From Candidatus Oscillochloris fontis (lineage in GTDB: Bacteria; Chloroflexota; Chloroflexia; Chloroflexales; Chloroflexaceae): 50,355 nucleotides of DNA. Below the pieces are notes generated by a model. The model saw nothing but the letters and a program-made list of their open reading frames with translations, did not search any database and was not told the DNA's origin. The stretch spans positions 1 to 50,355 of the forward strand of contig NZ_RYFD01000032.1 in assembly GCF_004138135.1 (NCBI RefSeq), given 5' to 3'. This document shows positions 18,570 to 44,659 of the stretch, piece by piece. Numbering within the stretch: position 1 is the first letter of the stretch; each line of letters begins with the position of its first letter. A program made the position numbers and the translations under genes.

Positions 18570-18575
18570 CCGTAT

Positions 18576-18597: not shown

Positions 18598-18621
18598 TAC
18601 GTGACGCCCATGGGGCGTACC

Positions 18622-23357: not shown

Positions 23358-23397
23358 AACATCCCGTAGGGGCGAAGCATCGCCCCTACGGGATGTT
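23358..23397. repeat. 18-bp stem palindrome of the GTAGGGGCGAAGCATCGCCCC family
   Basis: AACATCCCGTAGGGGCGA pairs with TCGCCCCTACGGGATGTT around a 4-base loop. It is the longest, most perfect copy of the short repeat. A second copy, GGGCGATGCTTCGCCCCTAC, follows at 23421-23440 in opposite orientation. Spacer between valS (divergent start) and the end of mnmG; may end mnmG transcription. Confidence 0.75.
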
Positions 23398-23511
23398 TGG
23401 GATTTCCCCGGCCATCTGGCGGGCGATGCTTCGCCCCTACAATGTGCCGGGTTGGCCGACCATGCATTGCCGGGATGCCCACACATGTGTTTTCGGATTA
23501 CCCGGACATCC

Positions 23512-26555: not shown

Positions 26556-26652
26556 AGACGCAACATCTTGCGTCTAGGGGAGACGCAACATCTTGCGTCT
26601 AGGGGAGACGCAACATCTTGCGTCTAGGGGAGACGCAACATCTTGCGTCTCT
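26553..26652. terminator. Four tandem 20-bp palindromes between convergent genes
   Basis: AGACGCAACATCTTGCGTCT (stem 8 bp, 4-base loop) occurs at 26556, 26581, 26606 and 26631, joined by AGGGG, period 25, with no mismatches among copies. It starts at the stop codon of the receiver fusion and ends ten bases before the ribF stop. Likely a two-way terminator or transcript-end shield. Confidence 0.8.
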
Positions 26653-26659
26653 ACACCAT

Positions 26660-29068: not shown

Positions 29069-29467
29069 ATGGCACAGGTCGAACTGACGTGGATCGAGCG
29101 CCAGCGTTACCTCGCGGTTGATAGTGGTGGGCATAGCGCCGTCTTTTCGGGTAAGGATGATGTGGGTGTAAAGCCTTCTGAGGCGCTGCTCTTGTCGCTG
29201 GCGGGTTGCTCGGCCCATGATGTGGTCGAGATTATCGGTAAGCGCAAGCTCACCCTCGACGCCCTGAAAGTAACCGTGACCGCCGAGCAGAAGGAGAAGG
29301 CTCCCTGGCCCTTCACCCGCATTCATCTGCGCTACACTGCTTCGGCAGAGGGTCTTGATCTGGATCAATTAAACCGAGCGATTGATCTCTCCCTCAACAA
29401 GTACTGCTCGGTGCGTGCATCGCTCTCCCCCGATGTGCAGGTGACCTATGAGGCGGTGCTTGAGTAG
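29069..29467 (+). CDS. OsmC family peroxiredoxin-like protein
   Basis: 132 residues, normal for OsmC/Ohr. The two conserved cysteines are present: C47 in LLSLAGCSAHDV and C113 in LNKYCSVRASL; the family uses them to reduce organic or fatty-acid hydroperoxides. Residues ~8-20 form the N-terminal beta hairpin. TATAAT at 29007-29012 may be its -10. The stop TAG belongs to a GTAGGGGCG repeat. A TlpA-like gene follows at 29554. Confidence 0.88.
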   Translation: MAQVELTWIERQRYLAVDSGGHSAVFSGKDDVGVKPSEALLLSLAGCSAHDVVEIIGKRKLTLDALKVTVTAEQKEKAPWPFTRIHLRYTASAEGLDLDQLNRAIDLSLNKYCSVRASLSPDVQVTYEAVLE

Positions 29468-29536
29468 GGGCGAAGCATCGCCCTCCATGTGGTCGGCGAA
29501 CCCGAACGAGGTTGTAGGGCGATGCTTTGCCCCTAC
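29464..29536. repeat. Inverted pair of short GTAGGGGCGAAGCATCGCCC repeats
   Basis: GTAGGGGCGAAGCATCGCCC (29464-29483) and an inverse copy ending GATGCTTTGCCCCTAC (about 29514-29536) face each other across ~30 bases. Each is itself a palindrome, and the pair can form one long hairpin. The first supplies the TAG stop of the OsmC gene. Confidence 0.75.
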
Positions 29537-29553
29537 GGGATGATCGGGGAACT

Positions 29554-30120
29554 ATGATCTTCTGGTTGCTTGAGTCGCAGCGGCGTTGGAGCATCTTCGC
29601 CACGCTGCTCTTGCTGTTGAGTGCGGGGTGGACGTGGCTGGCGCGGGTGCCCGATGCGGCCAATGGGGCGCGGATTCCTAGCCCGCGTGTTGATTTCCCA
29701 GCCCCGGATTTCACCCTCCAGACCCTCAATGCTGACACGATCCGCCTGAGTGACACTCGTGGCCAGGTGGTGGTGCTGAATGTGTGGGCAACATGGTGCG
29801 GCCCGTGTCGCGCTGAGATGCCCGCGATCCAACAATTACATACGACCCAGGCTCAGCAAGGGTTGGTGATCTTGGCGGTGAATAGCACCGTCCAGGACGA
29901 TGCGGCCGCAGTACAGGGCTTTGTGCAAGAATTGGGGTTGAGTTTCCCCATCCTGCTCGATAGGGATGGGACGGTGACGCATACCTACCGCGTGCAGGCG
30001 CTCCCCACGACGTTTGTGATTGATCGCCAAGGGGTGATCCGCAAGATCTTCTATGGCGGGCCACTCAATGAGGCTACGCTACGTGCCACGCTTGACCCAC
30101 TACTTCAAGAGGCTCCCTGA
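29554..30120 (+). CDS. TlpA-like thiol-disulfide oxidoreductase (membrane-anchored)
   Basis: 188 residues. An N-terminal membrane anchor at about 14-30 is followed by a thioredoxin fold: PAPDFTLQTLNADTIRLSD, then the active site WATWCGPCRAEMP (C82, C85) and the cis-Pro region VQALPTTFVIDRQG. Extracytoplasmic reductant, typically for cytochrome c or redox lipoprotein maturation. ATG 29554 starts just after the short repeat. Its TGA overlaps the ATG of the Lgt-like gene (TGATG), so the two are translationally coupled. Confidence 0.9.
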   Translation: MIFWLLESQRRWSIFATLLLLLSAGWTWLARVPDAANGARIPSPRVDFPAPDFTLQTLNADTIRLSDTRGQVVVLNVWATWCGPCRAEMPAIQQLHTTQAQQGLVILAVNSTVQDDAAAVQGFVQELGLSFPILLDRDGTVTHTYRVQALPTTFVIDRQGVIRKIFYGGPLNEATLRATLDPLLQEAP

Positions 30121-30848
30121 TGTTGCCCTTCATTCAGCTTGGCCCACTGGCGATCAACACTCCGGGGTTGCTGCTGCTGATCGGTTTCTGGTTGGCGGTG
30201 TGGCTGGTGGAGCGCGAGGGTGATCAGTTAGGATTGCGCGGCACCGCGCTCTCCGGGGCGCTCATGGTGGGTCTGGTGGGCGGGCTGATTGCGGCGCGCC
30301 TCGCATTTGCTGCGGCTGCCCCAGCGGCCTATCTGGAGGAGCCATTGGCGTTGCTGGCTCCCACCCTGAGTGCGCTCGATTTGCCATTTGGCCTCTTCAT
30401 TGGGATTCTTTTGCTGCTCTTTGATACTCAGCGCCGCCAGATTGTGCTTCGCCCAGCGCTTGATGCGCTGGCCCCTACGTTACCGCTGATGGCGTTGTCC
30501 CTTGCACTGGCCCAACTGGCGGGTGGCGATGCCTACGGAGCCGCAGCCAACCTGCCTTGGAGCATCTATCTGTGGGAAGAGTGGCGTCATCCGACCCAGA
30601 TTTACGCTGCCGTAGCCGCACTGATCACTCTGGCTCTTTGGTGGCGTACCCGCAGTGCGCCACTTGCTCCCGCCAGCCGACTGCCGCTGGTTATCGGGGC
30701 GTTGGCGTTGGCCCAGATCGGGATTGAGGGGCTGCGCGGGGATAGTGCGTTGGTGCTGGCGGGCCTGCGGACTGGCCAGGTGGTTGGGTTTGGGGTGTTG
30801 GCGGGGTGTTTGTGGATCATCCCCAAGTTGCAGCCCGCCAAAGCGTAG
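30120..30848 (+). CDS. Prolipoprotein diacylglyceryl transferase-like membrane protein
   Basis: 242 residues with seven hydrophobic segments. The Lgt plan is visible: GLVGGLIAARLAF near 50-62, the HPTQIYAA motif (family HPTQLYE) near 162, and RGDSALVLAGLRTGQVVGFG near the end (family FxRxD...xGQ). The Glu of HPTQLYE is Ala, and the long His/Arg-rich middle of true Lgt is reduced, so it may be a divergent or non-catalytic homologue. Coupled by a one-base overlap to the TlpA-like gene. The TAG stop lies in a GTAGGGGCGCG repeat. Confidence 0.65.
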   Translation: MLPFIQLGPLAINTPGLLLLIGFWLAVWLVEREGDQLGLRGTALSGALMVGLVGGLIAARLAFAAAAPAAYLEEPLALLAPTLSALDLPFGLFIGILLLLFDTQRRQIVLRPALDALAPTLPLMALSLALAQLAGGDAYGAAANLPWSIYLWEEWRHPTQIYAAVAALITLALWWRTRSAPLAPASRLPLVIGALALAQIGIEGLRGDSALVLAGLRTGQVVGFGVLAGCLWIIPKLQPAKA

Positions 30849-30870
30849 GGGCGCGTCGCAACGCGCCCCA
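30845..30870. repeat. GTAGGGGCGCGTCGCAACGCGCCCC short repeat
   Basis: A palindrome GGGGCGCGT...ACGCGCCCC whose first TAG is the stop codon of the Lgt-like gene. The same subfamily recurs at 18576, 31003 and 50269. Confidence 0.75.
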
Positions 30871-30900
30871 TGTGGAGGCGGCAGGCCCCACGAAAAAGAG

Positions 30901-30951
30901 GGTTGTGCTGGTGCGGTTGGCCGCTTTGCGGCCAACCGCACCAGCACAACC
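30901..30951. terminator. 24-bp perfect hairpin with 3-base loop between convergent genes
   Basis: A 24-base arm beginning GGTTGTGCTGGTGCGGTTGG and ending CCGC, loop TTT (30925-30927), and an exact complementary arm. The GGCCGC/GCGGCC core resembles the other long hairpins, but the arms are unrelated in sequence. It lies between the convergent Lgt-like and glycoside-hydrolase-like genes; flanks GGCAGGCCCC and GGGGCATAGCCCC match the family. Confidence 0.75.
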
Positions 30952-30985
30952 ATGGGTTTGGGGCATAGCCCCAAGCAGAAATCTG

Positions 30986-31027
30986 CTTAGCTTGAGGGGT
31001 ATAGGGCGCATCACGATGCGCCCCTAC
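30986..31027. repeat. Composite repeat CTTAGCTTGAGGGGTATAG plus GCGCATC palindrome
   Basis: The ~40-bp sequence is repeated in opposite orientation at 50269-50307. It ends in GCGCATCACGATGCGCCCCTAC; read on the minus strand, its GTAGGGGCG supplies the TAG stop of the 31024 gene. Confidence 0.75.
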
Positions 31028-32169
31028 CCCAACGCTAATGCCCGTTCCAGTGTGCTACGCATCTTCTGGATGCGGCGCAGCAACTTGGCCTCGTCGTCAC
31101 TAAAGTCGGCGAAGGCGGTGGCACGGCGATTCACCAGTGTGGCCTCGTGTTCGGCGAGGTCGGCGATGAGCAACGCCAGGCGGGCGGGGATGTCGCCCAG
31201 CGGCCCTGTCGGTGCAGGTGGGGCCGCATCGGGGCTGGCACCGAAGATCTCGATCTGACCGAGTGCCGCCTCGGCAGCCGCGCATGTTTCACGGTAGGTC
31301 TTGTCACCTTCGGGGTAGATGTGGTACTCCGGGTGCAGATCGCCCTTCATGGCGAGGTGGTAGTAGACCGCGCCCACCACATTGTCGGGCAGGGGTGGCC
31401 AGCCTTCTCCGCCATGCACCAGTTTGGCGTAGCGAATACCCTTCTCATGCTTGGGTACCTGCTTAGTGTCGTTGATCCCATACTCGGTAATGTACCAGGG
31501 CTTTTCGGGGAAGAACTGCTTGTGCAGTTCAATCGCATCACGCAACTCGCCTTTAGTGGCCGGGGCACCATCGGGCGCGAAGGCATAGTATTCGTAGAAA
31601 TGCACGCCAATCATATCGAAGAGGCGAATCTGCTGATTAGCGATCTCATAGAAACGGCGCATATTGCCGCTATTATCCATCATAAAGCCGGGTGAGATGA
31701 AGGTGGCCTGCGGGAAGACCTTCTTACAGTGCTTGACCGACTGTTCGAGCCAATAGGCCCACGCCCAGATGAACTCATCGTCTTGGTTGAAGACGTTGGG
31801 TTCATTGCCAATCTCAACCATAATATCGGGGCGGATGGAGTACCATTCCTGAATCTCGCGTTCGCAGAGATCGGGTTTGGGGAAGTCGTAGTCCCAATAT
31901 TGGGCATTCGGCCCCTTGGCCCCTGGGCGTGGCTTGCCCGAAAGCGGATCGAAGGGGCGGGCATAGCTGGGGTCGCCGCTCACCGTCCGCACGATCACGT
32001 TAGGTACCATGTTTAGCACCCGTTTGCGGGTCTCAGGATTCCAGCCACTCGCTAACCCCCATCCCGTGACCACTTTTACCGTATCGTACTCACCGAGCCG
32101 AATACAGTCTTCCAGGGTCTCCAACTTGTCCACATAGGTCAGCACAACGCCACGTTGCCTGGCTGCCAT
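31024..32169 (-). CDS. Glycoside hydrolase-like TIM-barrel protein (clan A pattern)
   Basis: 381 residues, no signal peptide. Residues ~5-300 read as a (beta/alpha)8 barrel with the two glutamates of retaining clan GH-A: E123 in VEIGNEPN (acid/base) and E229 in WYITEYGIND (nucleophile). A C-terminal helical extension (about 320-381, LIADLAEHEATLVNRRATA) may form a coiled coil. The lack of a secretion signal suggests cytoplasmic or phage/tail-like use, and the substrate is unknown. GGAGG precedes the ATG. Confidence 0.7.
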   Translation of the reverse strand: MAARQRGVVLTYVDKLETLEDCIRLGEYDTVKVVTGWGLASGWNPETRKRVLNMVPNVIVRTVSGDPSYARPFDPLSGKPRPGAKGPNAQYWDYDFPKPDLCEREIQEWYSIRPDIMVEIGNEPNVFNQDDEFIWAWAYWLEQSVKHCKKVFPQATFISPGFMMDNSGNMRRFYEIANQQIRLFDMIGVHFYEYYAFAPDGAPATKGELRDAIELHKQFFPEKPWYITEYGINDTKQVPKHEKGIRYAKLVHGGEGWPPLPDNVVGAVYYHLAMKGDLHPEYHIYPEGDKTYRETCAAAEAALGQIEIFGASPDAAPPAPTGPLGDIPARLALLIADLAEHEATLVNRRATAFADFSDDEAKLLRRIQKMRSTLERALALG

Positions 32170-32233
32170 AGATCCGCCTCCCTGCTAGTATTTGGTACTC
32201 CGTATGATGAATTGTAGCGCAGGGATGTTACGG

Positions 32234-33574
32234 TTATTGGCCGTGTTCATAGGCGGCCACGGCCATGCCTGAGGCAACGCCGGTAAAGACATCCATCTCT
32301 TGGAGTTTATCGGCACCGAACTTGTCGCTCAGCATGCGCACAAAGCGTGGAATGCGCGAGGAGCCACCCGTCCGCAGCACCACATCAATCTCGTCGGGGC
32401 GCAGGTCGGCGGCGGCGAGGGCGCGATCAATACATGCCTCAACCGCACGCACATCGGGACCAATCAGGCGCTCGAAGTCCCAACGTGGGATGCGCTCATC
32501 AAAGTCAATCTCGCCCATGTGCATGCCCAGGATCGTCTGCTCACGTTCTGAAAGCTCCACCTTGGCCCGTTCGACTGCCTCGTACATGGGTAGGCCGTAG
32601 TTCTGGCGCACCAGGGAACGCAGGGCTTTAAGTTCTGGCTTGCGATCCCCAATTGCCACCGCCTCTTCAATAATCTCCAGGTACTTGGGCTGGGTCATCT
32701 CGCTGATCGCCTGCCACTCACTGAGATGTTCGAGAATGTGGGTCGGGAAGGGTAAGCGGCGCGGCCCCAGGGTGGCACCGGCCCCAAAGTGGGGCAGTAG
32801 GCGGCCCATCACCAACCGCTGATCGAGTAGGTCGCCTCCTACAGGCACGCCATCGGTGGCCAGGAACTCGCGTTTGCCGCGCCCATCCAGGCGCATAATC
32901 GTGACATCGAGGGTGCCGCCGCCAAAGTCAAAGACCAACACATGTTCTTCGTGGCGTACCGTGCGCGCATACGAGAGCGCCGCGCCGGTGGGTTCCTCAA
33001 GGAAGGTGACATTGGGCAACTCGGCGAGGTGGCAGGCCGCCTGCATGCGCGTAAAGGCCAGTGCGTCGGCCTGAGGATTAGCGGCATAGTGGACAGGCCG
33101 CCCGATTACCATGCCCGTCACGGGCTGGCCAATACTAGCCTCGATACGTTCATAGATCAGGCGTAGCACAATCGCGATCAGGGCTTCGAGCGTGTAGGCG
33201 CTACCAAAGACGTTGGTATGGCTGAAGGCACGGTCGCGCAGCCCGCTCTTCATAGACTGGAAGAGGCGTCCGGGTGCGTTAGCATCCACCTTGGCGTAGA
33301 GCGCCTGCTGACGGGTACCGAGGCCCGCAAAGGTGACCTCAGCATTGCCGATATACTTCCAGGCATATTCTACCTCGCGGCCCACATTGCCCTCAGTGAA
33401 GCGGTTGATCGCTTCGCGACCAATTGAGGCGGCTCCCTCGCGGGTCATAAAGAGCGTGGAGCGCAAGATGCTGGGATTCTGATTGATCGGATCGATGGGC
33501 AGCAGGGTCAGGTGTTGCCCATCATAGATTGCGGCACTCGAATTGGTGGTGCCAAAGTCGAGACCTACCCACAT
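32234..33574 (-). CDS. Hsp70/DnaK-like ATPase (YegD type)
   Basis: 446 residues, about the length of the Hsp70 ATPase domain only. Phosphate 1 loop VGLDFGTTNSS (3-13), phosphate 2 VLVFDFGGGTLDVTIM near 205-220, and adenosine motif VVLRTGGSSRIP near 395. It lacks the substrate-binding domain of DnaK, like YegD and related actin-fold proteins. ATG 33574 has AGGAG nine bases upstream; earlier in-frame starts would translate a short palindromic repeat. No DnaJ or GrpE is nearby. Confidence 0.85.
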   Translation of the reverse strand: MWVGLDFGTTNSSAAIYDGQHLTLLPIDPINQNPSILRSTLFMTREGAASIGREAINRFTEGNVGREVEYAWKYIGNAEVTFAGLGTRQQALYAKVDANAPGRLFQSMKSGLRDRAFSHTNVFGSAYTLEALIAIVLRLIYERIEASIGQPVTGMVIGRPVHYAANPQADALAFTRMQAACHLAELPNVTFLEEPTGAALSYARTVRHEEHVLVFDFGGGTLDVTIMRLDGRGKREFLATDGVPVGGDLLDQRLVMGRLLPHFGAGATLGPRRLPFPTHILEHLSEWQAISEMTQPKYLEIIEEAVAIGDRKPELKALRSLVRQNYGLPMYEAVERAKVELSEREQTILGMHMGEIDFDERIPRWDFERLIGPDVRAVEACIDRALAAADLRPDEIDVVLRTGGSSRIPRFVRMLSDKFGADKLQEMDVFTGVASGMAVAAYEHGQ

Positions 33575-33592
33575 TGTAGATGACTCCTGCAT

Positions 33593-33668
33593 GCCGTAGG
33601 GGCGAAGCATCGCCATCCAACTTCGTTCGGGTTCCCCCACTCCATGGATGGCGATGCTTCGCCCCTAC
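33593..33668. repeat. Inverted pair of GTAGGGGCGAAGCATCGCC repeats
   Basis: Copy 1 (33593-33616) and inverse copy 2 (33647-33668) surround ~30 bases and can pair over GTAGGGGCGAAGCATCGCCA. The same paired layout occurs at 29464-29536 and 41395-41467. It lies between the VanW-type gene and the Hsp70-like gene. Confidence 0.8.
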
Positions 33669-33680
33669 ATTCTATGTATG

Positions 33681-35738
33681 TCACCCCTCAGTAATCGGGG
33701 GTTGCGGGTCCACCGGGGGCTGCGGGTCCACCGGGGGCTGCGGGTCCACCGGGGGCTGCGGGTCCACCGGGGGCTGCGGGTCCACCGGGGGCTGCGGGTC
33801 CACCGGGGGCTGCGGGTCCACCGGGGGTTGATTCGGGTCTACGGTGGGCGTTGGCTCTGCGGTTGGGCGTGGCTTGCCATCCGGCCCTAGGTCTGCCGGG
33901 TTGACCTCATAGATATTTGGCCACGGGCGGAACCGCGTGGAAAAGTTGCGGCGCTCGATCACCTGATCATTTTGGAATACGATCCGCACGAAGTCAATCT
34001 GCATTCCACCGCGTGCCGTATCGGTCTGGCGGCGACGACCGGGGGCAACCTCATTTGATGCGACATAGACCGGCTCAGTCGGCGCGGGGACGCGGTTGGA
34101 TGTGGTTGGGCCTTGGAGTTCTACGACACGTCCAGTATCGGTACCATAGATCCGCACCTCAGCCACGCGGGTGGAGGTATTGACCGATGTCTGAAGCAGC
34201 AGCCAGTGGCCAGTATCATTGAGGAACTTCAGATCCGGCCCACCCGTAAAGATCGTCGCGTCCATACCTGGCCCGTGGCCATACTCACCAAAGGCATACT
34301 TATCGTACCAACTAATATAGAAGGAGTGGCCCCAGCGCTCGGTGATCGGTAAGCCAGCCCAGAAAGCCGCACGGAAGACCGTAGTCGAGTCCTGGCAGAT
34401 ACCGCCCCCCCATTCAAGTTGGGTACGATTCTGGACAATTGCGTAGCCCTCAACAAAGCCATTGGAGGCATCAATCCGGCCAACAGTATTGTTGAACGAG
34501 AACTCCTCACCGGGAGCGATCAGAACCCCATGCAGCAGCGCCATCCCGGCCTTAATATTGGTGACGCGGTAGGCTGCCGAGCCAGTGAAGTCGCTCTTGC
34601 CAACCGCAAGTAGGTCGGTGATGCCAAGCTCCTGAATATTCTCTGCCGTCACCGGCGGAGGGATGGTCACAAAACTGAGCGACACATTGCGCTCCGGGTC
34701 ACCACCACCTTGGAGTGCGGCCATAATCTGCTCATAGGCACTCTGCTCATCAATCCGCGAGCCGGAGGTACCGTCACGAATGATGCGCAGGTCGCCACCA
34801 TTCCACTCGACGCGGGGATAGACCCCTTGTACCTCGGTGGCGTGGCCAATCGCCTTAATCTTCTCCTGGATCTGTGTGGTGTCAAGGCTGACCACTAAGG
34901 TATCGCCTTCAGGCCCGGCCACCTGATTGACCCGCACGAGGTGGGCGAGATCATCAATAGACCAGACAAACTCCTTCTTCCCGACCGTGATCGTGAGTGG
35001 TTCAGCAATCAGCGCATTGATCTGAGCTTGCGCTGTTTCGACGGCAGTGTTACTCAGGCGCGGTTCGAGTTCGCGGGTACGCAGCGCAATCTGTTGTGGC
35101 GCAAGATCTTGGATTGCCGCCATAATCTCTTGCAAACTCTCACTGATCAACAATTGCTGGCCTGTGGCGGCGGGTTGGGTATGGATCAGGGTACCATCAA
35201 GTTCAAGCTGGGCATCAATTGCTGGCTGATCAATCTCAGCCACGCGAGCTGCGAGGTACTGCTGCATCATCTCCTGATTGATCGTCAGGTGCAGCGGTAA
35301 CTCTATGCCATGTTGCCAGATGCCCCAGACTTGGCTGGCATTGGAAAAGAGCCCATTCTCACGCCCGGTTGCATAGGCAGCGGCAACTGCATTGTCAATC
35401 TCTAGCCGCACGCCAATCTCCGCCACCGTAGGCGTCCACATCTGTTCGCCATAGGTCAGTGTCAATGGCTGCGCCAAGAAGGGTGAGAATTCTGCTTGCA
35501 GCACCTGACGTGCCTCGTCAGGAGTCATGTCGCCGACGGTCACCCCGCGAATGCTCACATTGGGGTAGATGCGTCCGGCATAGCTGCGATCAAACAGAAA
35601 CAGACCCGTGCCGATACCGCCGAGCACCAGCAGAAAAAGCCCCGTCAGAATAAGCCACACGCGGCGGCTTATGTGACGTGACGCACGGATCTCAGGGAAT
35701 GGTGATGTACCGAGCGGGGAGGTTTGCTCAACCGACAC
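33681..35738 (-). CDS. VanW family protein with peptidoglycan-binding-like domains and PPVDPQ-repeat tail
   Basis: 685 residues. A membrane anchor at about 27-49, two PG_binding_4-like repeats (about 55-330: [31 protein letters not shown]), a VanW domain (about 375-520: [16 protein letters not shown], then [16 protein letters not shown]) and a G5-like segment (~540-610, RRNFSTRF at its end). The C-terminus has seven identical PPVDPQ units. Related YoaR/VanW proteins are extracytoplasmic and wall-associated. The repeat tail probably spans or binds the envelope. Strong promoter at 35801-35829. Confidence 0.85.
33702..33827. repeat. Seven tandem 18-bp units encoding PPVDPQ
   Basis: GGGGGCTGCGGGTCCACC-type units repeat in perfect frame over 126 bases and encode seven PPVDPQ hexapeptides at the VanW protein C-terminus. 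Units are almost identical at DNA level, so copy number is likely to vary between strains. Confidence 0.9.
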
Positions 35739-35800
35739 CAGCGCCTCCTACAGCGAGAAATGAGACAATAATAAACAGAACACACGATGTGCCTCAGATA

Positions 35801-35829
35801 ACTATACCTGTCAGATTGGAGCATGTCAA
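35801..35829 (-). promoter_or_regulatory. Strong sigma-70 type promoter for the VanW-family gene
   Basis: Minus strand TTGACA (35824-35829), 17-base spacer, TATAGT (35801-35806), about 60 bases before the ATG at 35738. Confidence 0.7.
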
Positions 35830-35848
35830 TGAGGAGAACGTGAGATAG

Positions 35849-35980
35849 AGGGCATGGGCGAAATCCTTGGGGCTGTGCCCCAGACCCGCTTTTTTCTCGT
35901 ATGTTGGCGACGAAGTCGCCAACATACGAGAAAAAAAGTTCTTCGGGAACCCCCACCGGAGGTGACGTTGCACATGCTCT
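35849..35980. mobile_element. 132-bp MITE-like element with central 22-bp hairpin
   Basis: Same plan as 28813-28962: imperfect ends AGGGCATGGGCGAAATCC and TGACGTTGCACATGCTCT, a GGGGC-TGT-GCCCC hairpin, and a long hairpin at 35890-35936 (22-bp stem, GAA loop). Its GGCGAC/GTCGCC core differs from GGCGGC/GCCGCC of the 14106 copy by a compensated base pair. The right end (TTGCAC at 35968, TACAAT at 35989) may contribute to transcription of the next gene, though 15-base spacing is short. Confidence 0.75.
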
Positions 35981-36048
35981 GGGTGATATACAATAGATGT
36001 AAGTATCACCACTGTAGGAGTCAACTCTTGTCCCTAAGGAGGGCTATT

Positions 36049-37269
36049 ATGATTCGCCCACACCTCTTGGCGTTTCGTGTCGCCGCGTTGACCATCGTAC
36101 TCTTGCTGGCGGCATGTAGCCTGCCTTTTGGGCAGCAAGCTACGCCCGAACCAGTCATTGTGATTGTCACTGCGACCCCTGACCCACGTGGGCAGCCGAC
36201 GGGGGCGCCCATAGCGACATCAGTGGATGCATCAACTGATGTGGTTGATCCGGCTGCAACGGCAACGGTAGTACCGGAAGAGAATCCCACAACGGTGTCG
36301 GGTAGCATGTTGGAGCGTGTGAAGGCGCGGGGTAAGCTCATTTGTGGCACGAATGCCGATCTGCCCGGTTTTGGTTTCTACGACAATGTGCGGGGGCGTT
36401 GGAGTGGTTTTGATGTGGATTTCTGCCGTGCGCTGGCGGCGGCAATCTTTGCCGATGCGCAGGCGGTTGAGTTTGTCTCCCTCAATACGTCTGGGCAGAA
36501 CGAGCGCTTTGAGGCGGTGCGGAGTGGCAGTGTGGATGTGCTCTTCCGTAATACGACCTGGACTCTGGGCCGTGATTTGGCGCAACTGGCCTTTGGCCCT
36601 ACTACTTTCCACGATGGCCAGACTTTTATGGTGCGTAGCGCTACGCAGATTACGAGCCTGAATGATTTGGCGGGGAAGAAGATCTGTGTGGCACGCGGCA
36701 CTACAAGTGCCCAGAACCTGAGTGATGATTTTGCGGCGCGTGGAATCAGCTTTGAGCAGGTGCTCTACGATGATGAGAACCAACTCTACCCCGCCTATGA
36801 TCGTGGTGAGTGTGATGCGGTCACGAGCGATAGTTCGCAACTAGCCTCGAAGCGGCAGACGCTTGAACGCCCGGAAGATCATACCATCTTGGGTGAGCGC
36901 ATCTCGCGTGAGCCGCTTGGCCCGGCCTTCATTGAGGGCGATGAGCAGTGGCGTGATGTGGTGAGTTGGGTGGTCTTTGCGACAATGTATGCCGAAGAGT
37001 TGCGGGTTGATCAGACCAATGTTGAGCAGATGAAGGCCACTAGCACCGACCCACGGGTGCGGCGTCTGCTTGGCCTAGAGGGCGACTTTGGTACCACCTT
37101 GGGTCTGAGTAACGATTTTGGCTACCAGATCGTTCGGCTCGTCGGGAACTACGCCGACATCTATAACCGCAATCTAGGGCCAAGCACGCCTTTTGCGATG
37201 GAACGTGGCCCGAATAAGGCATGGAACCTCGGTGCGGGTGGGGTGTTGGCGTCGCCGCCGTTCCGATGA
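36049..37269 (+). CDS. Second amino-acid ABC transporter substrate-binding lipoprotein (AapJ-like)
   Basis: 406 residues. Signal peptide with lipobox LLLAAC, then a Pro/Thr-rich linker to about 80 and a family-3 binding domain: VKARGKLICGTNADLPGFGF, then FDVDFCRALAAAIF and DVLFRNTTWTLGRD. Clearly a paralogue of the 12913 product. It stands alone without permeases or ATPase, so it may feed the AapQMP complex with a different specificity or act as a sensor. ATG 36049 has AAGGAGGG upstream; the frame remains open through the preceding MITE but that start is implausible. Confidence 0.88.
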   Translation: MIRPHLLAFRVAALTIVLLLAACSLPFGQQATPEPVIVIVTATPDPRGQPTGAPIATSVDASTDVVDPAATATVVPEENPTTVSGSMLERVKARGKLICGTNADLPGFGFYDNVRGRWSGFDVDFCRALAAAIFADAQAVEFVSLNTSGQNERFEAVRSGSVDVLFRNTTWTLGRDLAQLAFGPTTFHDGQTFMVRSATQITSLNDLAGKKICVARGTTSAQNLSDDFAARGISFEQVLYDDENQLYPAYDRGECDAVTSDSSQLASKRQTLERPEDHTILGERISREPLGPAFIEGDEQWRDVVSWVVFATMYAEELRVDQTNVEQMKATSTDPRVRRLLGLEGDFGTTLGLSNDFGYQIVRLVGNYADIYNRNLGPSTPFAMERGPNKAWNLGAGGVLASPPFR

Positions 37270-37272
37270 TAT

Positions 37273-37332
37273 GGAGGTTCTGGGGCTGCGCCCCCGAACC
37301 TCCACCGGGTGAGGGCGGATCAGCCCTCACCC
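37273..37332. terminator. Two hairpins between convergent genes
   Basis: GGAGGTTC...GAACCTCC with an inner GGGGC/GCCCC (37273-37303), then GGGTGAGGGC with GCCCTCACCC (37307-37332). The methyltransferase stop codon lies in the loop region of the second. The first is related to the GGGGCTGCGCCCC arm of the MITE-like elements. A probable two-way terminator. Confidence 0.6.
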
Positions 37333-38099
37333 AGATCGCGTACCGCGACCAGCACTTGCCAGAGGCTCGATTCACCAAAGGTGACGGGGGGTAAGATCGC
37401 GTCGCCAAAGACACTGAGTGGGCGCAAGCCAACTTCTGCCAGCATCGCCGCTAATTCGGGGAAGCCGTAGAGGCGGATGCGATCACCGGGGTGGGTCAGA
37501 TCAAGGCTCTGGGAAGGATCAATATAGCGATAATCAATATACAGGGTGGCTTCACGTGGCTCAAAGCGGGCTTCACGCAGGACATACCCACTACCGAGTT
37601 GGTACCATCCGTTGCGGAATTCACGCATATAGGCGTCAATCTGGTAGGGATTGATACACTGGAGCAGCAGCTTTCCGCCGGGGGCCAAAGCGCGGGCAGC
37701 CCCGGCGAGCACCTGAAGATTGGTCGGATCATCAAAGAAGCCCAGGCTACTATTCATAATCAGGATGGCATCGAAACGCCCGACATCAGTGAGGTTGCGC
37801 ATGTCGCCCTGAACAAAGGTGACACTCAGATCAAGCTCGCTGGCGCGGTTGCGTGCATGGGCCAGCACACGTTCCGAGGCATCAAGTCCCACTACGGTGA
37901 GGCCACGTTGGGCCAGTTCGATACTGTGCCGCCCGCCACCACATGCCAGATCGAGGATCGTCTCAACCCCGCGCAGGCTGAGCGCCTGACTGAGAAAATC
38001 CACCTCCTGGCGAGTCAGGTTTTCGGCATAATCGTGGTAGAGCGCAAATTCGTGTACTTGGAGTAGTTCTTCCCACCAGTCGCGCAGATCGTCACTCAT
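37320..38099 (-). CDS. Class I SAM-dependent methyltransferase
   Basis: 259 residues. Motif I TILDLACGGGRHSIELA near 60-76, motif II VVGLDASERVLAHAR, acidic FVQGDMRNL and post-II FDAILIMNSSLGFF. The pattern is Methyltransf_25/11. The C-terminal half contains beta strands (RIRLYGFPELAAML). Target unknown. Divergent from the sortase gene, with ~50 bases between starts. Confidence 0.85.
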   Translation of the reverse strand: MSDDLRDWWEELLQVHEFALYHDYAENLTRQEVDFLSQALSLRGVETILDLACGGGRHSIELAQRGLTVVGLDASERVLAHARNRASELDLSVTFVQGDMRNLTDVGRFDAILIMNSSLGFFDDPTNLQVLAGAARALAPGGKLLLQCINPYQIDAYMREFRNGWYQLGSGYVLREARFEPREATLYIDYRYIDPSQSLDLTHPGDRIRLYGFPELAAMLAEVGLRPLSVFGDAILPPVTFGESSLWQVLVAVRDLGEG

Positions 38100-38150
38100 A
38101 GGGTTTCAGCCTTCTGTATCCTCAGTGTGGTTCTATTTTATCAGGTATCT

Positions 38151-38834
38151 ATGCAATACATCGTTCTTCTGCTTGCGCTCATCCTGCTGACCGCCTGTGG
38201 ATCAGATTCTAAGCCGATGGTTGCTCCTGAAGCTACCGCCAGCCCACTGGCTATGCACGTAGCAACTTCGGTGCCGTCGTCGCCTACGGCCACGCCCAGC
38301 CCGCTGCCGTCGCCTACGGCCACGCCTAGCCCGCTGCCGTCGCCTACGGCCACGCCTAGCCCAACACCGAGCCTCGTTGTGGTGGCTGCTCCGCCAACCC
38401 GGCTCCAGATCGCGGCGATTGATCTAGATCAGGAGATCATCTCGGTAGGCTTAGATGAGCAGCGGGTTCCGATTGTACCCAACCACGAGGTGGGGTGGTA
38501 CAACCTGAGTGCGCGGCTTGGCCAGCGTGACAATATTGTGCTCTGGGGCCATGTGCTGCGTTTTCGATCTGCGCCCAACATTCCGGCTCCCTTTGCACGA
38601 ATTAAGGATCTAGAGATTGGCGATACGATCATGCTCTCTGATGCGAAGGGGGCTGTACGTCACTATGTGATTGCGCGGCAAGTATGGGTGACACCCGATC
38701 AGGTCGAGTATATTATGCCCCAGGGGCGCGAGATGGTGACGCTCGTTTCGTGCATTGGGGATAAGGTGGTGGATGAATCCGGGGTAGAGATGTCGCATCG
38801 GTTGATTACGATTGCTGAGTTGGTAGGGGAGTAA
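38151..38834 (+). CDS. Lipoprotein-type sortase (class D/E-like)
   Basis: 227 residues. The N-terminus is a lipoprotein signal with LLTAC (C16), not the usual sortase membrane helix. A Pro/Ser/Thr linker has three copies of a 10-residue unit (44-73). The sortase domain (about 83-224) keeps the catalytic H134 in VLWGHV, C201 in TLVSC and R217 in SHRLIT. Sortases cleave a C-terminal sorting signal and join the protein to the envelope or to another subunit. In a cell without a known Gram-positive wall pathway, lipid anchoring is notable. No substrate with an LPxTG-like signal was seen in the window. ATG 38151 chosen over GTG 38127. Confidence 0.85.
   Translation: MQYIVLLLALILLTACGSDSKPMVAPEATASPLAMHVATSVPSSPTATPSPLPSPTATPSPLPSPTATPSPTPSLVVVAAPPTRLQIAAIDLDQEIISVGLDEQRVPIVPNHEVGWYNLSARLGQRDNIVLWGHVLRFRSAPNIPAPFARIKDLEIGDTIMLSDAKGAVRHYVIARQVWVTPDQVEYIMPQGREMVTLVSCIGDKVVDESGVEMSHRLITIAELVGE
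38280..38369 (+). repeat. Three tandem 30-bp units in the sortase linker
   Basis: The decapeptide SPTATPSPLP is encoded three times by nearly identical 30-base units (TCGCCTACGGCCACGCC core). A flexible spacer, probably length-variable among strains. Confidence 0.85.
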
Positions 38835-38838
38835 TCCA

Positions 38839-39522
38839 TCACTCCGCAAAACGATACCCGACGCCCCATTCGGTCTGAATGAGTTCGGCAGTGGGATCAA
38901 CCTCGGCCAGTTTGGCGCGCAGACGGCGGATATGGACATCTACGGTGCGCTCATCGAGGAAGCCGTCCTGGCCCCAAACTTGGCGCAAGAGGGTCTCGCG
39001 GCTAAAGACCTGGCCGGGGTGGCGGGCGAGGAAGGCGAGTAGATCAAACTCGCGGGGGCGCAGTTCGAGTAGGTGGCCCTGGAAGGTGACGTGGCGGCGG
39101 GGCTGATCGATCTGGAGCGGCGAGGGTGGTGTGCTCGGTTCAGCCGGGCGGGTACGCAGGGCAGCGCGGCGGAGCAAGGCGCGGGCGCGGGCGACCAACT
39201 CACGCACCGAGAAGGGCTTGACCACATAGTCATCGGCACCAAGCTCAAGGCCCACCACGCGATCAATCTCATCACCACGGGCGGTGAGGAGCAGCACGGG
39301 GGTGTCGAGGTCGTGGGCACGCAGGCGGCGCAGCACCTCGAACCCATCAATGTCGGGTAAACCCACATCGAGTAGGACGAGATCAATCGGCTGTTGGTTG
39401 ATCAGGTGGAGCGCCGCCTCGCCACTCCCCACCGTCTGCACATGCAATCCCTCACGCTCAAGGCGTTCGCGGATGACCGTGACAATAGCCGGTTCGTCAT
39501 CAACAATCAACACACGCTGCAT
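38839..39522 (-). CDS. OmpR-family response regulator
   Basis: 227 residues. Receiver domain with D8/D9, phospho-acceptor D52 in LVLLDVGLPDIDG, T80 and K102; then a winged-helix DNA-binding domain (about 130-225) ending QTEWGVGYRFAE. A normal two-domain regulator. No histidine kinase is adjacent. It starts three bases after the stop of the cNMP-binding gene, so the two share a transcript. Confidence 0.93.
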   Translation of the reverse strand: MQRVLIVDDEPAIVTVIRERLEREGLHVQTVGSGEAALHLINQQPIDLVLLDVGLPDIDGFEVLRRLRAHDLDTPVLLLTARGDEIDRVVGLELGADDYVVKPFSVRELVARARALLRRAALRTRPAEPSTPPSPLQIDQPRRHVTFQGHLLELRPREFDLLAFLARHPGQVFSRETLLRQVWGQDGFLDERTVDVHIRRLRAKLAEVDPTAELIQTEWGVGYRFAE

Positions 39523-39525
39523 AGG

Positions 39526-40023
39526 TTAGGATCGTTTCCCCAGCTCGCCCCCCTGCCAGCGGATGTTGCCGCGCAACAGCAGGTTGGAGGAGCGCAGTTT
39601 ATAGGAGAGATCCGACGCCAAGTTGCGCATGACTTTATAGCCAATGCGGGGACTCTTCTCGCAGAGTGCTGCGAAGTCGCGTTCGCGGATGACGAGAAAG
39701 ACACACGGTTCAACACAGGTAACGGTGGCGGAACGGGTGGCCCCGCCGAGTAGCACCATCTCGCCAAAACTCTGACCGCCGTAGAGCATGTTGATCGTGC
39801 TGAGTGCCATGGCACCTTGCGCCGAGCGGGTCATGAGTGCGACCCGCACACAGCCCTCAATGATGACCATCATCTCATCACCATCATCGCCTTCATTGAA
39901 GACGACCTGATTAGGTGCCATCTTCTGCACCCGACACAGGCTGGCGATTTGAAGGATGTCTTCATCGGTTAGACCGCCAAAGATGACGACCCGGCGGAGG
40001 TATTCAACAATTTGTGCGGTCAT
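39526..40023 (-). CDS. Cyclic nucleotide-binding domain protein (stand-alone)
   Basis: 165 residues, only a Crp-type cNMP domain: GLTDEDILQIASLC, then VFNEGDDGDEMMVIIEG and the phosphate-binding cassette FGEMVLLGGATRSATV with conserved E and R. There is no HTH, so it is not a Crp regulator by itself; it may act through the coupled response regulator three bases downstream. ATG 40023 preferred (MTAQIVEYLRR) with AAGGAT upstream. Confidence 0.85.
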   Translation of the reverse strand: MTAQIVEYLRRVVIFGGLTDEDILQIASLCRVQKMAPNQVVFNEGDDGDEMMVIIEGCVRVALMTRSAQGAMALSTINMLYGGQSFGEMVLLGGATRSATVTCVEPCVFLVIRERDFAALCEKSPRIGYKVMRNLASDLSYKLRSSNLLLRGNIRWQGGELGKRS

Positions 40024-40095
40024 AGGACGTATCCTTACGTTGCAGACAGGGATGTGTAGTATAGCATAACGCAAGAAGGGGTGATATTTAGCGAC

Positions 40096-41373
40096 TCAAC
40101 GCGGTAATGCGACCATAAAACTGGCTTCGCCAAATGGTTGGTGTTTGAGCCGAACAATCAGCGCGGAGGCACTCCGGCTGAGCGGGCGATCTGTGTGGAC
40201 GCTTCCGCGTTCTTTCTCGCCGGGGGTGAGGCGTAGGATTGCTGGTTGGGCACTGGTTTCGTCGAGCAGGTATTGGTTGCCGAGGTTGTCGCTGATCTGG
40301 ATGTTGTCGTTGCGCAGCGGGAAGCTGATGGTCTGTTCGCTCTGGTTCTGGAGACTCCAGGTGAGGCTGATCTGTCCATCACAGGTGGCGACCTCCTCCA
40401 AGATGACCACGACATCAGGGGGAAGGTTGGGGCTACCATTGGCAACACTCACCCACACCTTGCTGCTACTCTCCCAGCGTTTGCCGACGAGTTGGTAGCT
40501 CGGCCAGATGCAACTGCCTTCTATGGATGTTGTTCTGAAGGTGACGCCGCCTGTCGGCACGCCCGTCACTTCGGCAAGCGGGAGGAAGAGTTGGTCGGCG
40601 TGTTGCAGTGGCCCACTGGTAGGCCGTATTGCGAGGGCGATCAGCAGGGTGAGTAGCGCCACCCCCAGACCGATGGCGCTGCGCCCCAGGGGGCTACGCC
40701 AGCGGTCGGCGGGTGGTACTGGCGCAGGCTCAGGTGGTGGTGTGGCAGCGGCTGGTTCCTGGAAGGCACCGTGGATGACGGTGTTGATCTCTTCCCAGGG
40801 GGTACAGTGGAGCAACGCCGGAATGGCGCGCATCTCCTCGTCGCTCAGTTCGATCTCCGAGGAGCGCTCGGTGATCAGGTAGGCGGGCAGTTCGTCTAGC
40901 CCCTTGAGTTGCACCTTCCAGTCGAGTTCAATCTCTGAATCTGGTTCGAGCGTCGGCGCAATCACCACCACCCGTTTACAGGTGCGGAAATCCACATTGC
41001 TCGCCTTCTGCTCCGAAAGGAACTCGCGGCGATGCTCGTTGAGGAAGTTGGTCAGTGCGTGGAAGTAGGAAATGACCTGGTTGTAGGGGTTTTTGCGCCC
41101 CGGATTGAGCCGCTTCTGTTCACCGTTGCGGCCTTCAACAAACCATGGCCCGTTGACCGTGCCGATCACCCGCCCATCGCAATGCTTGAGTTCAATAATA
41201 AAGACCGCGTCGCGCTTGATAATGACGAGATCTATCGTGCGCCCACCCACACTAAAGTTGGCCAGGATCAGGTGGAGGCCATCCAACCGATCAAACCCGT
41301 TGGCCAGGGACATGATGGCGCGCCGCTCGTTGGGGTGTTCGGGCTTGTCGCCGATCCAGACTTGAACTGCCAT
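40096..41373 (-). CDS. NERD domain membrane protein
   Basis: 425 residues. An N-terminal NERD (nuclease-related) domain at about 10-115: GRTIDLVIIKRDAVFIIELK has D48, E61 and K63, the D...ExK pattern of restriction-like nucleases. A Pro-rich linker leads to a membrane helix near 233-255, then a beta-rich extracytoplasmic domain of ~170 residues. Function unknown; NERD proteins occur in DNA processing and defence contexts. The start at 41373 avoids translating the adjacent short repeat. Confidence 0.75.
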   Translation of the reverse strand: MAVQVWIGDKPEHPNERRAIMSLANGFDRLDGLHLILANFSVGGRTIDLVIIKRDAVFIIELKHCDGRVIGTVNGPWFVEGRNGEQKRLNPGRKNPYNQVISYFHALTNFLNEHRREFLSEQKASNVDFRTCKRVVVIAPTLEPDSEIELDWKVQLKGLDELPAYLITERSSEIELSDEEMRAIPALLHCTPWEEINTVIHGAFQEPAAATPPPEPAPVPPADRWRSPLGRSAIGLGVALLTLLIALAIRPTSGPLQHADQLFLPLAEVTGVPTGGVTFRTTSIEGSCIWPSYQLVGKRWESSSKVWVSVANGSPNLPPDVVVILEEVATCDGQISLTWSLQNQSEQTISFPLRNDNIQISDNLGNQYLLDETSAQPAILRLTPGEKERGSVHTDRPLSRSASALIVRLKHQPFGEASFMVALPR

Positions 41374-41394
41374 GATTGGGTGATGTTTGATCCT

Positions 41395-41467
41395 GTAGGG
41401 GCGAAGCATCGCCCACCAATATAGACCTATTCCTCAGGCCACATGATGGGCGATGCTTCGCCCCTAC
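41395..41467. repeat. Inverted pair of GTAGGGGCGAAGCATCGCCC repeats
   Basis: Two copies face each other around ~35 bases between the NERD and uvrB genes. Read on the minus strand, the copy at 41448-41467 contains GTAGGGGCG, whose TAG (41464-41466) is the uvrB stop codon. Confidence 0.8.
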
Positions 41468-43464
41468 AAGGCTAAGGTCTTCCTCAACTCCATGATCTGA
41501 TCGCGCAGCGCCGCCGCCTTCTCAAAGGCCAGATCCTTGGCGGCCTGCTTCATCTGCTTCTCCAGATCCTTGATCAGTTTGTGGATCTCCTCGCGGGGCA
41601 GCTCGTGAACAATCGCGTGTGCCGTATCATTGCGGCTCTGCACTTGGTATTCGCCCCGCTCCTCGGCCAGTTTGCGCAGCCGGTCGGAGAGATCGCGCAC
41701 ACCCTTGGAGATGCCCACCGGGGTAATGTTGTGGCGCAGATTGTGGGCGATCTGGATGTCACGGCGGCGCTGGGTCTCCTTGATTGCCGCGTCCATTGAT
41801 TTGGTGATCGTGTCGGCATACATGATCACGCGGCCCTCAAGGTGGCGCGCCGCCCGCCCGACGATCTGGATGAGCGAGGTCTCGGAGCGCAAGTAGCCCT
41901 CTTTATCCGCGTCCAGAATGGCGATCAGGCTCACTTCGGGCAGATCCAGCCCCTCGCGCAGCAGGTTGATACCCACGACTGTATCGTAGATGCCGAGGCG
42001 TAGATCGCGTAGAATTTCGATCCGTTCGAGGGTGTCAATGTCGGCGTGCAGGTACATGGTACGCACCCCGACCTCTTTCAGATAATCGGCCAGATCCTCG
42101 GCCATGCGTTTGGTGAGGGTGGTGACGAGGGCACGCTGCCCCTTCGTGACCCGCAGGCGGATTTCGGCCACCAGATCATCAATCTGGCCCTTGCTGGGGC
42201 GCACCTCGATGATCGGATCAACCAGCCCGGTGGGGCGGATGATCTGCTCAACAATCTGCTGGCTCTGCTCGCGCTCGTAGGGGCCGGGGGTGGCCGAAAC
42301 ATAGATGGCCTGATAAACGTGCTCGGCAAACTCCTCAAACTGCAAGGGCCGGTTGTCGAGCGCCGAAGGCAGGCGGAAACCAAAATCCACCAGCGTCTCT
42401 TTGCGCGAGCGGTCGCCCTTATACATACCGCGCACCTGCGGCAGACTGATATGGCTCTCATCAATAAAGAGCAAGAAATCATCAGGGAAGTAGTCGAGCA
42501 GCGTCCAGGGCGTCTGGCCGGGGCTACGTCCATCCATGTGGCGCGAATAGTTCTCGATCCCGGAGCAGTAGCCAACCTCGCCGAGCATCTCCAGATCATA
42601 CATGGTGCGCTGCTTGAGGCGCGCCGCTTCCAGATTCTTGCCCGCCGCTTCAAGTTCGCGCAGCCGCTCGCCCAACTCGTCCTGAATAGTCTGCACCGCC
42701 GCCGCCAGTTTATCCTTGGTGGTGACAAAGTGCTTGGCGGGGTAGATGTCTACCGCCGTGCGGGTAAGCAGAATCTCGCCGGTGAGCGGGTCAATCTCGA
42801 CAATCCGCTCAACCTCATCGCCCCAAAACTCGATGCGTACTGCCGTCTCGCTATTGGCAGGTAGAATATCGAGCGTATCACCGCGCACGCGGAACGTACC
42901 GCGATGAAAGTCAACATCGTTACGCTCAAACTGAAGATCGATCAACTGACGCAGCAGCTTATCGCGGTTACGCACCTCACCGTTGCGGATCGGAACCACC
43001 ACCTGCCCGTAATCTTGGGGCGAACCGAGGCCAAAGATCGCCGAGACCGAGGCCACAATCAACACATCGCGGCGCGTAAAGAGCGCCTGAGTCGCCGCGT
43101 GGCGCAGGCGGTCAATCTCCTCATTGATACTCGCCTCCTTCTCGATATAGAGATCCTTACTGGGCACATACGCCTCAGGGGTATACTCATCGTAGTAGGA
43201 GATGAACATCTCAACCGCCGCATCGGGCAAGAAATCGCGGAACTCGGCCCACAATTGTGAGACCAGCGTCTTATTGTGTGCCATCACCAGTGTGGGGCGC
43301 TGGGCCTGCTCAAAGATCTGGGCCATCACAAACGTCTTGCCGGTACCCGTGGCACCCAGCAAGGTCTGATGGCGGTAGCCAGCCTTCAAGCCAGCGACCA
43401 ACTGCGCAATCGCCTGGGGCTGATCGCCGGTGGGTTGATAGGGAGCTTGGACTCGGAAGCTCAT
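41464..43464 (-). CDS. uvrB: Excinuclease ABC subunit B
   Basis: 666 residues. Walker [11 protein letters not shown] (35-44), the beta-hairpin region [13 protein letters not shown] near 89-101, helicase motifs including LLFIDESH and ATPGPYE, and motif [11 protein letters not shown]; the C-terminal UVR domain (from about 622) reads [18 protein letters not shown]. UvrB verifies DNA damage with UvrA and recruits UvrC. Complete. The stop codon is inside a short palindromic repeat. Confidence 0.97.
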
Positions 43465-43516
43465 AAAGAATCTCGCTGCTGTTGGGAGTGGATACTACAC
43501 TACACCCAGCATCCAG

Positions 43517-43587
43517 GTTTTGACGCCAAGACGCCAAGGCGCAAAGCCTTCAACAAAACCTTTGCGTCTTTGCGCCTTGGCGTCAAC
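43517..43587. repeat. Inverted GACGCAAAG-type repeat
   Basis: TTGACGCCAAGACGCCAAGG...CTTTGCGCCTTGGCGTCAA folds into a hairpin around CTTCAACAAAACC. It lies between the deoxyhypusine-synthase-like gene and uvrB, both on the minus strand. Homologous to 20389 and 49867. Confidence 0.8.
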
Positions 43588-43606
43588 AAAAGGACTCTGT
43601 GTACCC

Positions 43607-44659
43607 CTACACCTGCGCCTCAGCCATGTGCAACTCGCGGCCCTCGCTGAGGGCGCGGCCCCAAGCGCGGGCGCTGCGGTTCTGCCAGTTGCCCTTGTGG
43701 TAGACATACCCGGCCAAGAGCGGGAAGGTGACGGTGGCTTCACCATACACCATCTGCTCCTGGGCGAGACTAACCTTACCCCACGAGTTGGCCTCCTTGA
43801 GCGTCGAGCCAGAGAGGGCACCATCGCGCTCATCGGCGACGGTGAGTTGCACTGCGTACTGGTGCATCGGAGCCTCATAGCCGAGGAACTCCGCCGAAAC
43901 CACAATATCCTGCACAAAGTTCTTGGGCACGCCGCCACCCAGCATGAGCAAGCCGGTGGTTCCCGCCCAGACCTTAATCGCGGTCAATTCGCGGAAATCC
44001 TTGACACTATCAATGCTGACGTGGGCCTGGGGATTACTCACCTGATGCGCGACCAGCCCAAACCCCGCCGAGCAGTCGGAGAAGGCGGGGACGAAGATTG
44101 GCACATCGCGGCGGTAGCACTCCAGCACGATACTCTCCGCCTCTGGGTGGTGCTGATCGAGGTACGCGCCCATTGCGCGAATGAACTCGCGGCTAGAGTA
44201 CGCCCCCGGAGCCATGCTGTCGGCAATCATGCGGGTGGTATCGTCGCAGACGCGCAGTTCTTCCTCATCAATATAGGTATCGTAGATGCGGTCAATCATG
44301 CGCTCGCGCAGATCGTTATCGTCTACGAACGGGGTGCCCTGGTAGTGGCGATAGCCGAGTGCCTCGAAGAAGTCCTGATCCACGATATTTGCCCCGGTGG
44401 AGACGATCACATCCACCGCATTGCAGCGCAGCAGATCGAGGATAACCCCCTTCTGTCCCGCCGAGATCAGACTGCCCGCGAGGGTCAGAATGACCGTAGC
44501 CTGGGTATCAGCCACCATCGCATCGGCGATCTGGGCAGCACGCGCCAGATTGCGGGCTTGGAAGGCGGTGCGGCCCATCATCTCAATCAGCGGAACCACA
44601 TTGACCGCCTTGATGTCAATATGCTCGACCATCGTGTGCAGCAGATCCTGCTTCTCCAT
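43607..44659 (-). CDS. Deoxyhypusine synthase-like protein
   Basis: 350 residues. Family segments: LTLAGSLISAGQKG (58-71), VSTGANIVDQDFF near 86-98, VPIFVPAFSDCSAGFG and LGGGVPKNFVQD; K295 in ANSWGKVS aligns with the catalytic lysine of deoxyhypusine synthase. The eukaryotic enzyme transfers an aminobutyl group from spermidine to eIF5A; bacterial homologues have no eIF5A target and include homospermidine-synthase-like enzymes, so polyamine metabolism is the safer reading. Promoter and a structured leader lie upstream. The stop TAG is in GTGTAGGGG. Confidence 0.85.
   Translation of the reverse strand: MEKQDLLHTMVEHIDIKAVNVVPLIEMMGRTAFQARNLARAAQIADAMVADTQATVILTLAGSLISAGQKGVILDLLRCNAVDVIVSTGANIVDQDFFEALGYRHYQGTPFVDDNDLRERMIDRIYDTYIDEEELRVCDDTTRMIADSMAPGAYSSREFIRAMGAYLDQHHPEAESIVLECYRRDVPIFVPAFSDCSAGFGLVAHQVSNPQAHVSIDSVKDFRELTAIKVWAGTTGLLMLGGGVPKNFVQDIVVSAEFLGYEAPMHQYAVQLTVADERDGALSGSTLKEANSWGKVSLAQEQMVYGEATVTFPLLAGYVYHKGNWQNRSARAWGRALSEGRELHMAEAQV

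Follow-up and report, generated by a model that had tools for sequence, protein, structure and literature searches.

Within a stretch of 50,355 nucleotides of Candidatus Oscillochloris fontis (contig NZ_RYFD01000032.1, positions 1 to 50,355; hereafter the window), several functionally unrelated genes end in a TAG codon that also belongs to the first letters of a short palindromic repeat. The question raised by this locus is whether such coincidences are fortuitous, whether the repeat settles beside TAG codons that were already there, or whether it brings the stop with it. The central claim, that GTAG repeats donate stops, is already in print: the termini of the GTAG-tagged REP super-family have been described as often providing a TAG stop, and Chloroflexi are among the listed hosts (Di Nocera, De Gregorio, Rocco 2013, PMC3733652). 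The gene-end REP-like system suggested by a preliminary description of the window is thus not wholly new. The accessible parts of that article neither tally the donated stops nor test them against orthologues, and doubly ended convergent pairs do not appear there; all three are presented here, together with controls, the orthologue test being directed at TAG targeting. Judging mostly from titles, we recognised no printed count of REP-donated stops beyond the 2013 remark.

GTAG repeats in the window and in the genome

The word GTAGGGGCG occurs 11 times exactly in the window, against 0.55 expected, a count reached in 0 of 100 shuffles; four of these 11 sites and one GTAGAGAC site act as stop donors. 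The coordinates are collected in Table 1. The four in-frame stops initially attributed to the repeat (OsmC, Lgt, gene 31024-32145 and uvrB) proved exact, and Lgt and gene 31024-32145 form a convergent pair with a REP stop on both sides. Two extra cases fared differently: a GTAGGGG is present at the stop of the deoxyhypusine synthase gene (43607), and neither there nor at the stop of the OpuAC-domain gene (18622) is the codon that of a REP. The former gene ends in GTAGGGGTAC, and the sequence read beyond this end shows no GTAG hairpin; the latter ends in GTAGGGTAC, the true REP end lying only at 18600. On the other hand, a donated stop had been missed: the response-regulator gene 25587-26555 (+) ends in the TAG 26553-26555 of a second GTAG family (GTAGAGACGCAACATCTTGCGTC / GTAGAGACGC...).

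The two single REPs of the window at donated stops fold as GTA plus a 9-bp stem and GTAG plus an 8-bp stem, and the three dimers have fold z-scores from -7.75 to -10.61; at gathering score, no known RNA family was found in the window. Pfam supports the OsmC, LGT and UvrB labels; for gene 31024-32145 the glycoside-hydrolase label is a weak one, PF00150 scoring 21.9 bits where its cut-off is 23.5. Relatives of this last gene were seen, among the named genomes, only in Oscillochloris sp. ZM17-4 and in an uncultured Oscillochloris (two loci).

Table 1. GTAG repeats of the window and the gene ends associated with them (REP gene ends are given with the coordinates of the gene).
Feature	Coordinates	Strand	Detail or basis
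Single REP in convergent spacer, no stop donated	18572..18600	-	25 nt beyond TAG 18622-18624 (-)
Three REP ends, no stop donated; spacer rich in repeats	23366..23440		Word count, sequence
Repeat array, second GTAG family (GTAGAGACGCAACATCTTGCGTCT)	26552..26654	+	Sequence, word positions
OsmC gene, stop = TAG 29465-29467 of dimer 29464..29536	29069-29467	+	ORFs and sequence
REP dimer, 73 bp, GTAG termini outside	29464..29536	+	Fold z -7.75
Lgt gene, stop = TAG 30846-30848 of REP 30845..30869	30120-30848	+	ORFs and sequence
Single REP, GTA + 9-bp stem	30845..30869	+	Sequence, folding
Single REP	31003..31027	-	ORFs, sequence, folding
Gene, stop = TAG 31026-31024 of REP 31003..31027	31024-32145	-	ORFs and sequence
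REP dimer, 73 bp, donates no stop	33596..33668		16 nt beyond stop of gene at 33681 (-)
REP dimer, 73 bp	41395..41467	-	ORFs, sequence, folding
uvrB gene, stop = TAG 41466-41464 of dimer 41395..41467	41464-43464	-	ORFs and sequence
GTAGGGG at deoxyhypusine synthase stop, TAG 43609-43607	43604..43610	-	No GTAG hairpin; not counted as REP

The whole genome (4.46 Mb) contains 644 exact copies of GTAGGGGCG and 174 of the reversed word. Gene ends were studied in a sample of 1,165,875 bases (26% of the genome), in which a purpose-written script with a hexamer model, rather than a published caller, called 942 genes, 934 of them with a stop (TAG 424, TAA 262, TGA 248). The sample is not random: contigs C1, C2, C3, C6, C8, C9, C34, C98 and C121 were chosen from match listings, and C10-C18 and C20 were taken by number, C19 being left out; this choice may overstate the density of the repeat, and leaves its register at stops unaffected. 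Three GTAG words were used, namely GTAGGGGCG, GTAGAGACG (second family) and GTAGCGACG, and, where so stated, three eight-letter words.

A perfect stem of at least 5 bp follows the tag at 170 of the 214 GTAGGGGCG sites of the sample, and nothing upstream of the tag is fixed. An inverted copy lies 63-68 nt after the GTAG at 111 of the 214, which defines a 73-bp unit GTAGGGGCGAAGCATCGCC ... GGCGATGCTTCGCCCCTAC; single hairpins some 25 nt long also occur. Five arrays with at least five REP sites are present in the sample. The sites are mostly intergenic: in a smaller first sample 126 of 148 lay in no called gene, 20 in genes of the opposite strand and two in genes of the same strand. Same-strand intragenic sites of the three eight-letter words number 27 in all, and 16 of them are GTAGCGAC, far from the gene end. 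These tagged stem-loops, high in copy number, mostly extragenic and partly arranged as inverted dimers, belong to the GTAG-REP super-family, with whose members they share, as far as the source (PMC3733652) was available, a terminal unpaired GTAG, a short stem-loop, dimers in which the GTAG ends face outward, a position at gene 3' ends and the coexistence of several families in some genomes.

Stop codons within the repeats

The repeats use their TAG as a stop far above chance, and they do so well beyond the window, as anticipated for a gene-end REP-like repeat: the three eight-letter words account for 73 of the 934 stops of the sample (7.8%). Exactly at the nearest same-strand stop stand 35 of 214 GTAGGGGCG sites, 30 of 95 GTAGAGACG sites and five of 41 GTAGCGACG sites, and the next ten positions together hold 12, five and three, respectively, offsets 1 and 2 being impossible since the letters of GTAG permit no stop there. 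The 73 sites are in TAG phase; within 80 nt of a gene end only three others run through in a different one. A perfect hairpin of at least 5 bp lies right behind the tag at 53 of the 73 stops, and a hairpin or an inverted partner at 58; among the other GTAG stops 13 of 187 pass the same hairpin test, and among TAA/TGA stops 23 of 510. Some of the 15 stops with neither hairpin nor inverted partner may be remnants or chance matches (about two expected by chance, from the 187 other GTAG stops). No spike was found for 12 words of seven other repeats, with at most two sites at any one position, a control limited by its 0-25 sites each near stops vs. 75 and 64 for the REP words. For the reverse REP words there are small peaks too, one of three sites and one of 12 at offset 18, where 28-bp palindromes have their far end. 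A congener (G001; 400,000 bases, 307 genes) repeats the pattern for GTAGGGGCG, with 10 of 35 sites at a stop, and shows no spike for the other two words (0/10 and 0/7). The coincidence of GTAG repeats with stops is real and exceeds chance.

Convergent genes offer the repeat two stops at once. A REP word lies between 43 of the 137 convergent pairs of the sample, and at least one of the two stops is REP-given in 27 of these 43 (28 of 137 overall). Both are REP-given in eight pairs, a number that matches independence (about seven expected from the per-side rates of 17/43 and 18/43). In three of these doubly ended pairs the stops are 20 nt apart, and one 28-bp palindrome is the whole spacer.

Gene ends were compared with those of relatives for 22 of the 73 REP-ended genes (66 pairs) and 111 of the 861 others (224 pairs), only some regions being covered. 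Pairs were dropped if identity was below 60%, if they ended more than 25 residues short, if less than half of the query was covered, if the stretch held no stop or if the end was a duplicate; two outliers (-182 and -44 codons, the second with masked N in the congener stretch) were retained. A common stop position is found in 14 of 66 pairs if the own gene is REP-ended, vs. 130 of 224 if it is not; several pairs may stem from one gene and are then not independent, and with one pair per gene the direction is the same (6/22 vs. 66/111, p 0.009). A REP word is on one side only in 81 pairs, 62 in one direction and 19 in the other. In 77 of the 81 the two stops are at most four codons apart, the shifts going in both directions. 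Of the 62 pairs with the REP in the own gene only, 58 stay within four codons. The comparison is one with congeners, whose spacers are too diverged for a breakpoint to be placed.

Origin of the donated stops

We consider it probable that mobile GTAG-tagged REP/BIME elements, filtered by selection, donate these stops. A RAYT-type single-strand transposase would spread REP copies, which selection would then filter. With GTAG at the element's start on both strands, translation could be ended on either strand, so that an in-phase copy within a few codons of the stop would end it at once at almost no cost for the host; copies in the other two phases would add a foreign tail and be lost. In the narrow spacer of a convergent pair, a GTAG...CTAC palindrome could stop both genes. 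An in-frame copy just past a stop might also act as a back-up, and the original stop could then decay. Such decay would help to explain how often the repeats stand at stops, but the deficit of in-frame downstream REPs predicted by this ratchet was not significant (16 of 61 vs. 20 expected, p 0.15), and the ratchet was set aside.

How far random landings suffice was explored with neutral models, in which in-phase landings within the dispensable gene end collapse onto the REP stop and REP ends up to 60 nt are scored. With four dispensable codons of truncation and four of extension, the model predicts 19% of such ends at the stop vs. 46% seen (73/159). Across six models the predictions rise with the dispensable stretch from 11% (4.2-fold excess) to 40% (1.1-fold), and a fit is reached only at 14 codons of truncation and nine of extension (40%, p 0.08), wider than the displacements observed between orthologues. 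The best reading is that random landings under selection are the main cause, with a residual excess beyond what they predict.

That residue, 1.3- to 4.2-fold in five of the six models, speaks for an insertion or retention actively biased to the stop region, for example through single strands exposed at gene 3' ends or through a benefit that a hairpin right at the stop has for mRNA stability or translation. REP ends do grow denser toward the stop, with 14 of them at offsets 3-5 and 25 at 31-60, partly because spacers are short, and REPs of Escherichia coli at most 15 nt from the stop can lower translation, according to work cited in the portion of PMC12306157 available to us. However, the magnitude of the excess varies with the number of end codons taken as dispensable, and no recurrent hotspot at the same genes was found across the congeners compared (4/66 vs. 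19/224). A modest true bias toward stops may exist; as the principal explanation we regard it as unlikely. Rather doubtful, too, is the bolder proposal that GTAG is kept partly since it lets the element terminate itself on both strands, with stop donation a selected property of the element and insertion perhaps biased to stops. If true, elements bearing their own stop at either end could spread into gene ends and into spacers of almost no length, as in the case of the 28-bp palindrome that fills a whole spacer and ends both convergent genes.

A different order of events was among those raised at the outset, in which a transposase inserts beside a pre-existing GTAG or TAG, the stop being older than the repeat. 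TAG is the commonest stop even among genes without REP words (351 of 861), and in relatives of the IS200/IS605 group cleavage is guided by a tetranucleotide beside the element, as stated in the part of PMC8266576 consulted. The repeat-free partners of the 81 one-sided pairs, however, end in TGA (31), TAG (28) and TAA (22), in TAG no more often than the relatives of other genes (109 of 224). A stop position in common, expected if TAG were the target, is seen in only 21 of the 81 pairs, and in 14 of the 62 in which the own gene bears the REP. As for uvrB, four of four congeners carry one or two further codons and then TAA. Mixed partner stops and small shifts imply that the repeat brings the TAG and that TAG stops are not its target. 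The targeting of existing stops is thus largely refuted and, in our opinion, very improbable; the repeat supplies the TAG and shifts the gene end slightly. Finally, a spurious pattern arising from the gene caller or from G-rich sequence, with TAG stops happening before GGGG, could be suspected from the purpose-written caller, which scores any open frame entering a repeat as ending there, and from the 15 stops lacking a clean palindrome, but it is refuted, and hardly conceivable, given the orthologue ends within a few codons, the hairpin contrast between REP-word and other GTAG stops and the absence of a spike in non-GTAG repeats.

Mobility, related systems and meaning

The palindromes are probably mobile. 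Their presence at given stops varies among congeners both ways (the 62 and 19 pairs above), as would be expected of mobile DNA from such sequence comparisons. A search for a Y1 (RAYT-like) transposase elsewhere in the genome had been proposed, and one RAYT-like gene was found: it is the only match of PF01797 (Y1), and its product scores 61.8 bits against NF047646 (REP-associated tyrosine transposase), below the cut-off of 80. It lies just downstream of an array of 10 REP sites with a stretch of N, a closeness that is only suggestive because the sample has five arrays of at least five sites. At 13 loci of congeners no REP array was found beside Y1 genes, and four of these loci have one or two GTAG hairpins. 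Of the six genomes of the genus, four have a Y1 match; in the two without it (G002 and G003) the word exceeds its reversed form little or not at all (333 vs. 285; 117 vs. 126).

The BIMEs and REPtrons of TnpAREP (RAYT) systems, known from E. coli and Stenotrophomonas, likewise have two inverted REPs per unit and a Y1 transposase gene beside REPs. Unlike them, the candidate transposase here is below the RAYT equivalog cut-off, and in the stretch read its array is confined to the 5' side. A genome of another family of the class (G064) also abounds in GTAGGGGCG (325 vs. 37 for the reversed word), and 26 of the 41 sites examined there are nested in a longer terminal inverted repeat (resembling ATTGAGAAGATAC, with at most three mismatches), which bears a likeness, and only that, to the TIRtrons or TIR repeats treated in the accessible parts of Di Nocera 2013. 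Unlike in the REPs of O. fontis, the GTAG of these nested sites is internal, and none of the 26 supplies a stop; overall, one of 41 sites donates a stop in that genome vs. 35 of 214 in O. fontis (Fisher p 0.014). The nested copies fit a GTAG that has to be outermost, and help only a little: as proof the contrast is weakened, since the non-nested sites are few and low too (1/15). That genome favours TAA stops, and the two genomes differ in other ways as well.

Stops within GTAG repeats make up 6-8% of those of the sample (58 to 73 of 934), roughly one gene in fifteen. As the presence of a REP at a given stop differs among congeners, these elements reshape the C-termini of proteins by a few codons. 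For annotation this is a point of caution: in such genomes repeats are responsible for small differences in C-terminal length and for some of the TAG usage. The arrangement also provides a testable reason for a mobile element to keep a TAG at both of its ends.

Stop codons and repeat structures in the host genome

TAG is unusual among bacteria as the most frequent stop codon, and it still holds this position in the sample of the host's own genome (351 of 861 stops) once the stops lying in words of the REPs, the short palindromic repeats with terminal GTAG, are set aside. Two further repeat structures of the window are listed below. On contig C14 of the same genome (2982-3067), a REP pair likewise encloses a palindrome, with the GGTTGGCCGC core also found in that of the window.

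Further repeat structures at gene ends in the window
Feature	Position	Description	Setting
Second GTAG family array	26552-26654	Several copies	Flanked by the response-regulator gene and a convergent gene
Perfect palindrome	30901-30951	24-bp arms, GGTTGTGCTGGTGCGGTTGGCCGC	Between both REPs of the convergent pair formed by the Lgt gene and the gene at 31024-32145 (-)

Context and strand of GTAGGGGCG in more distant genomes

In G064, which belongs to another family of the same class, 26 of 41 GTAGGGGCG sites examined (stretches L281-L300) are enclosed by a longer inverted repeat, like ATTGAGAAGATAC, and this is a separate, MITE-like element. The whole genome of G010, from another genus of the same family, carries the word 211 times on the plus strand and 216 times on the minus strand; among the matches listed for its contig C1 (76199-2496678, within the first 2.5 Mb), all are on the plus strand. 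The copies seem to be partitioned by strand, possibly according to replichore.

Tandem repeats at gene ends of congeners

In other genomes of the genus (stretches L073, L074, L190, L220 and L221), short tandem repeats (for example ATTGCAGATTGCAG or GGGAACAGGGAACA) directly follow several gene ends, with an inverted copy farther along; these are a different type of repeat crowding the stops in congeners.
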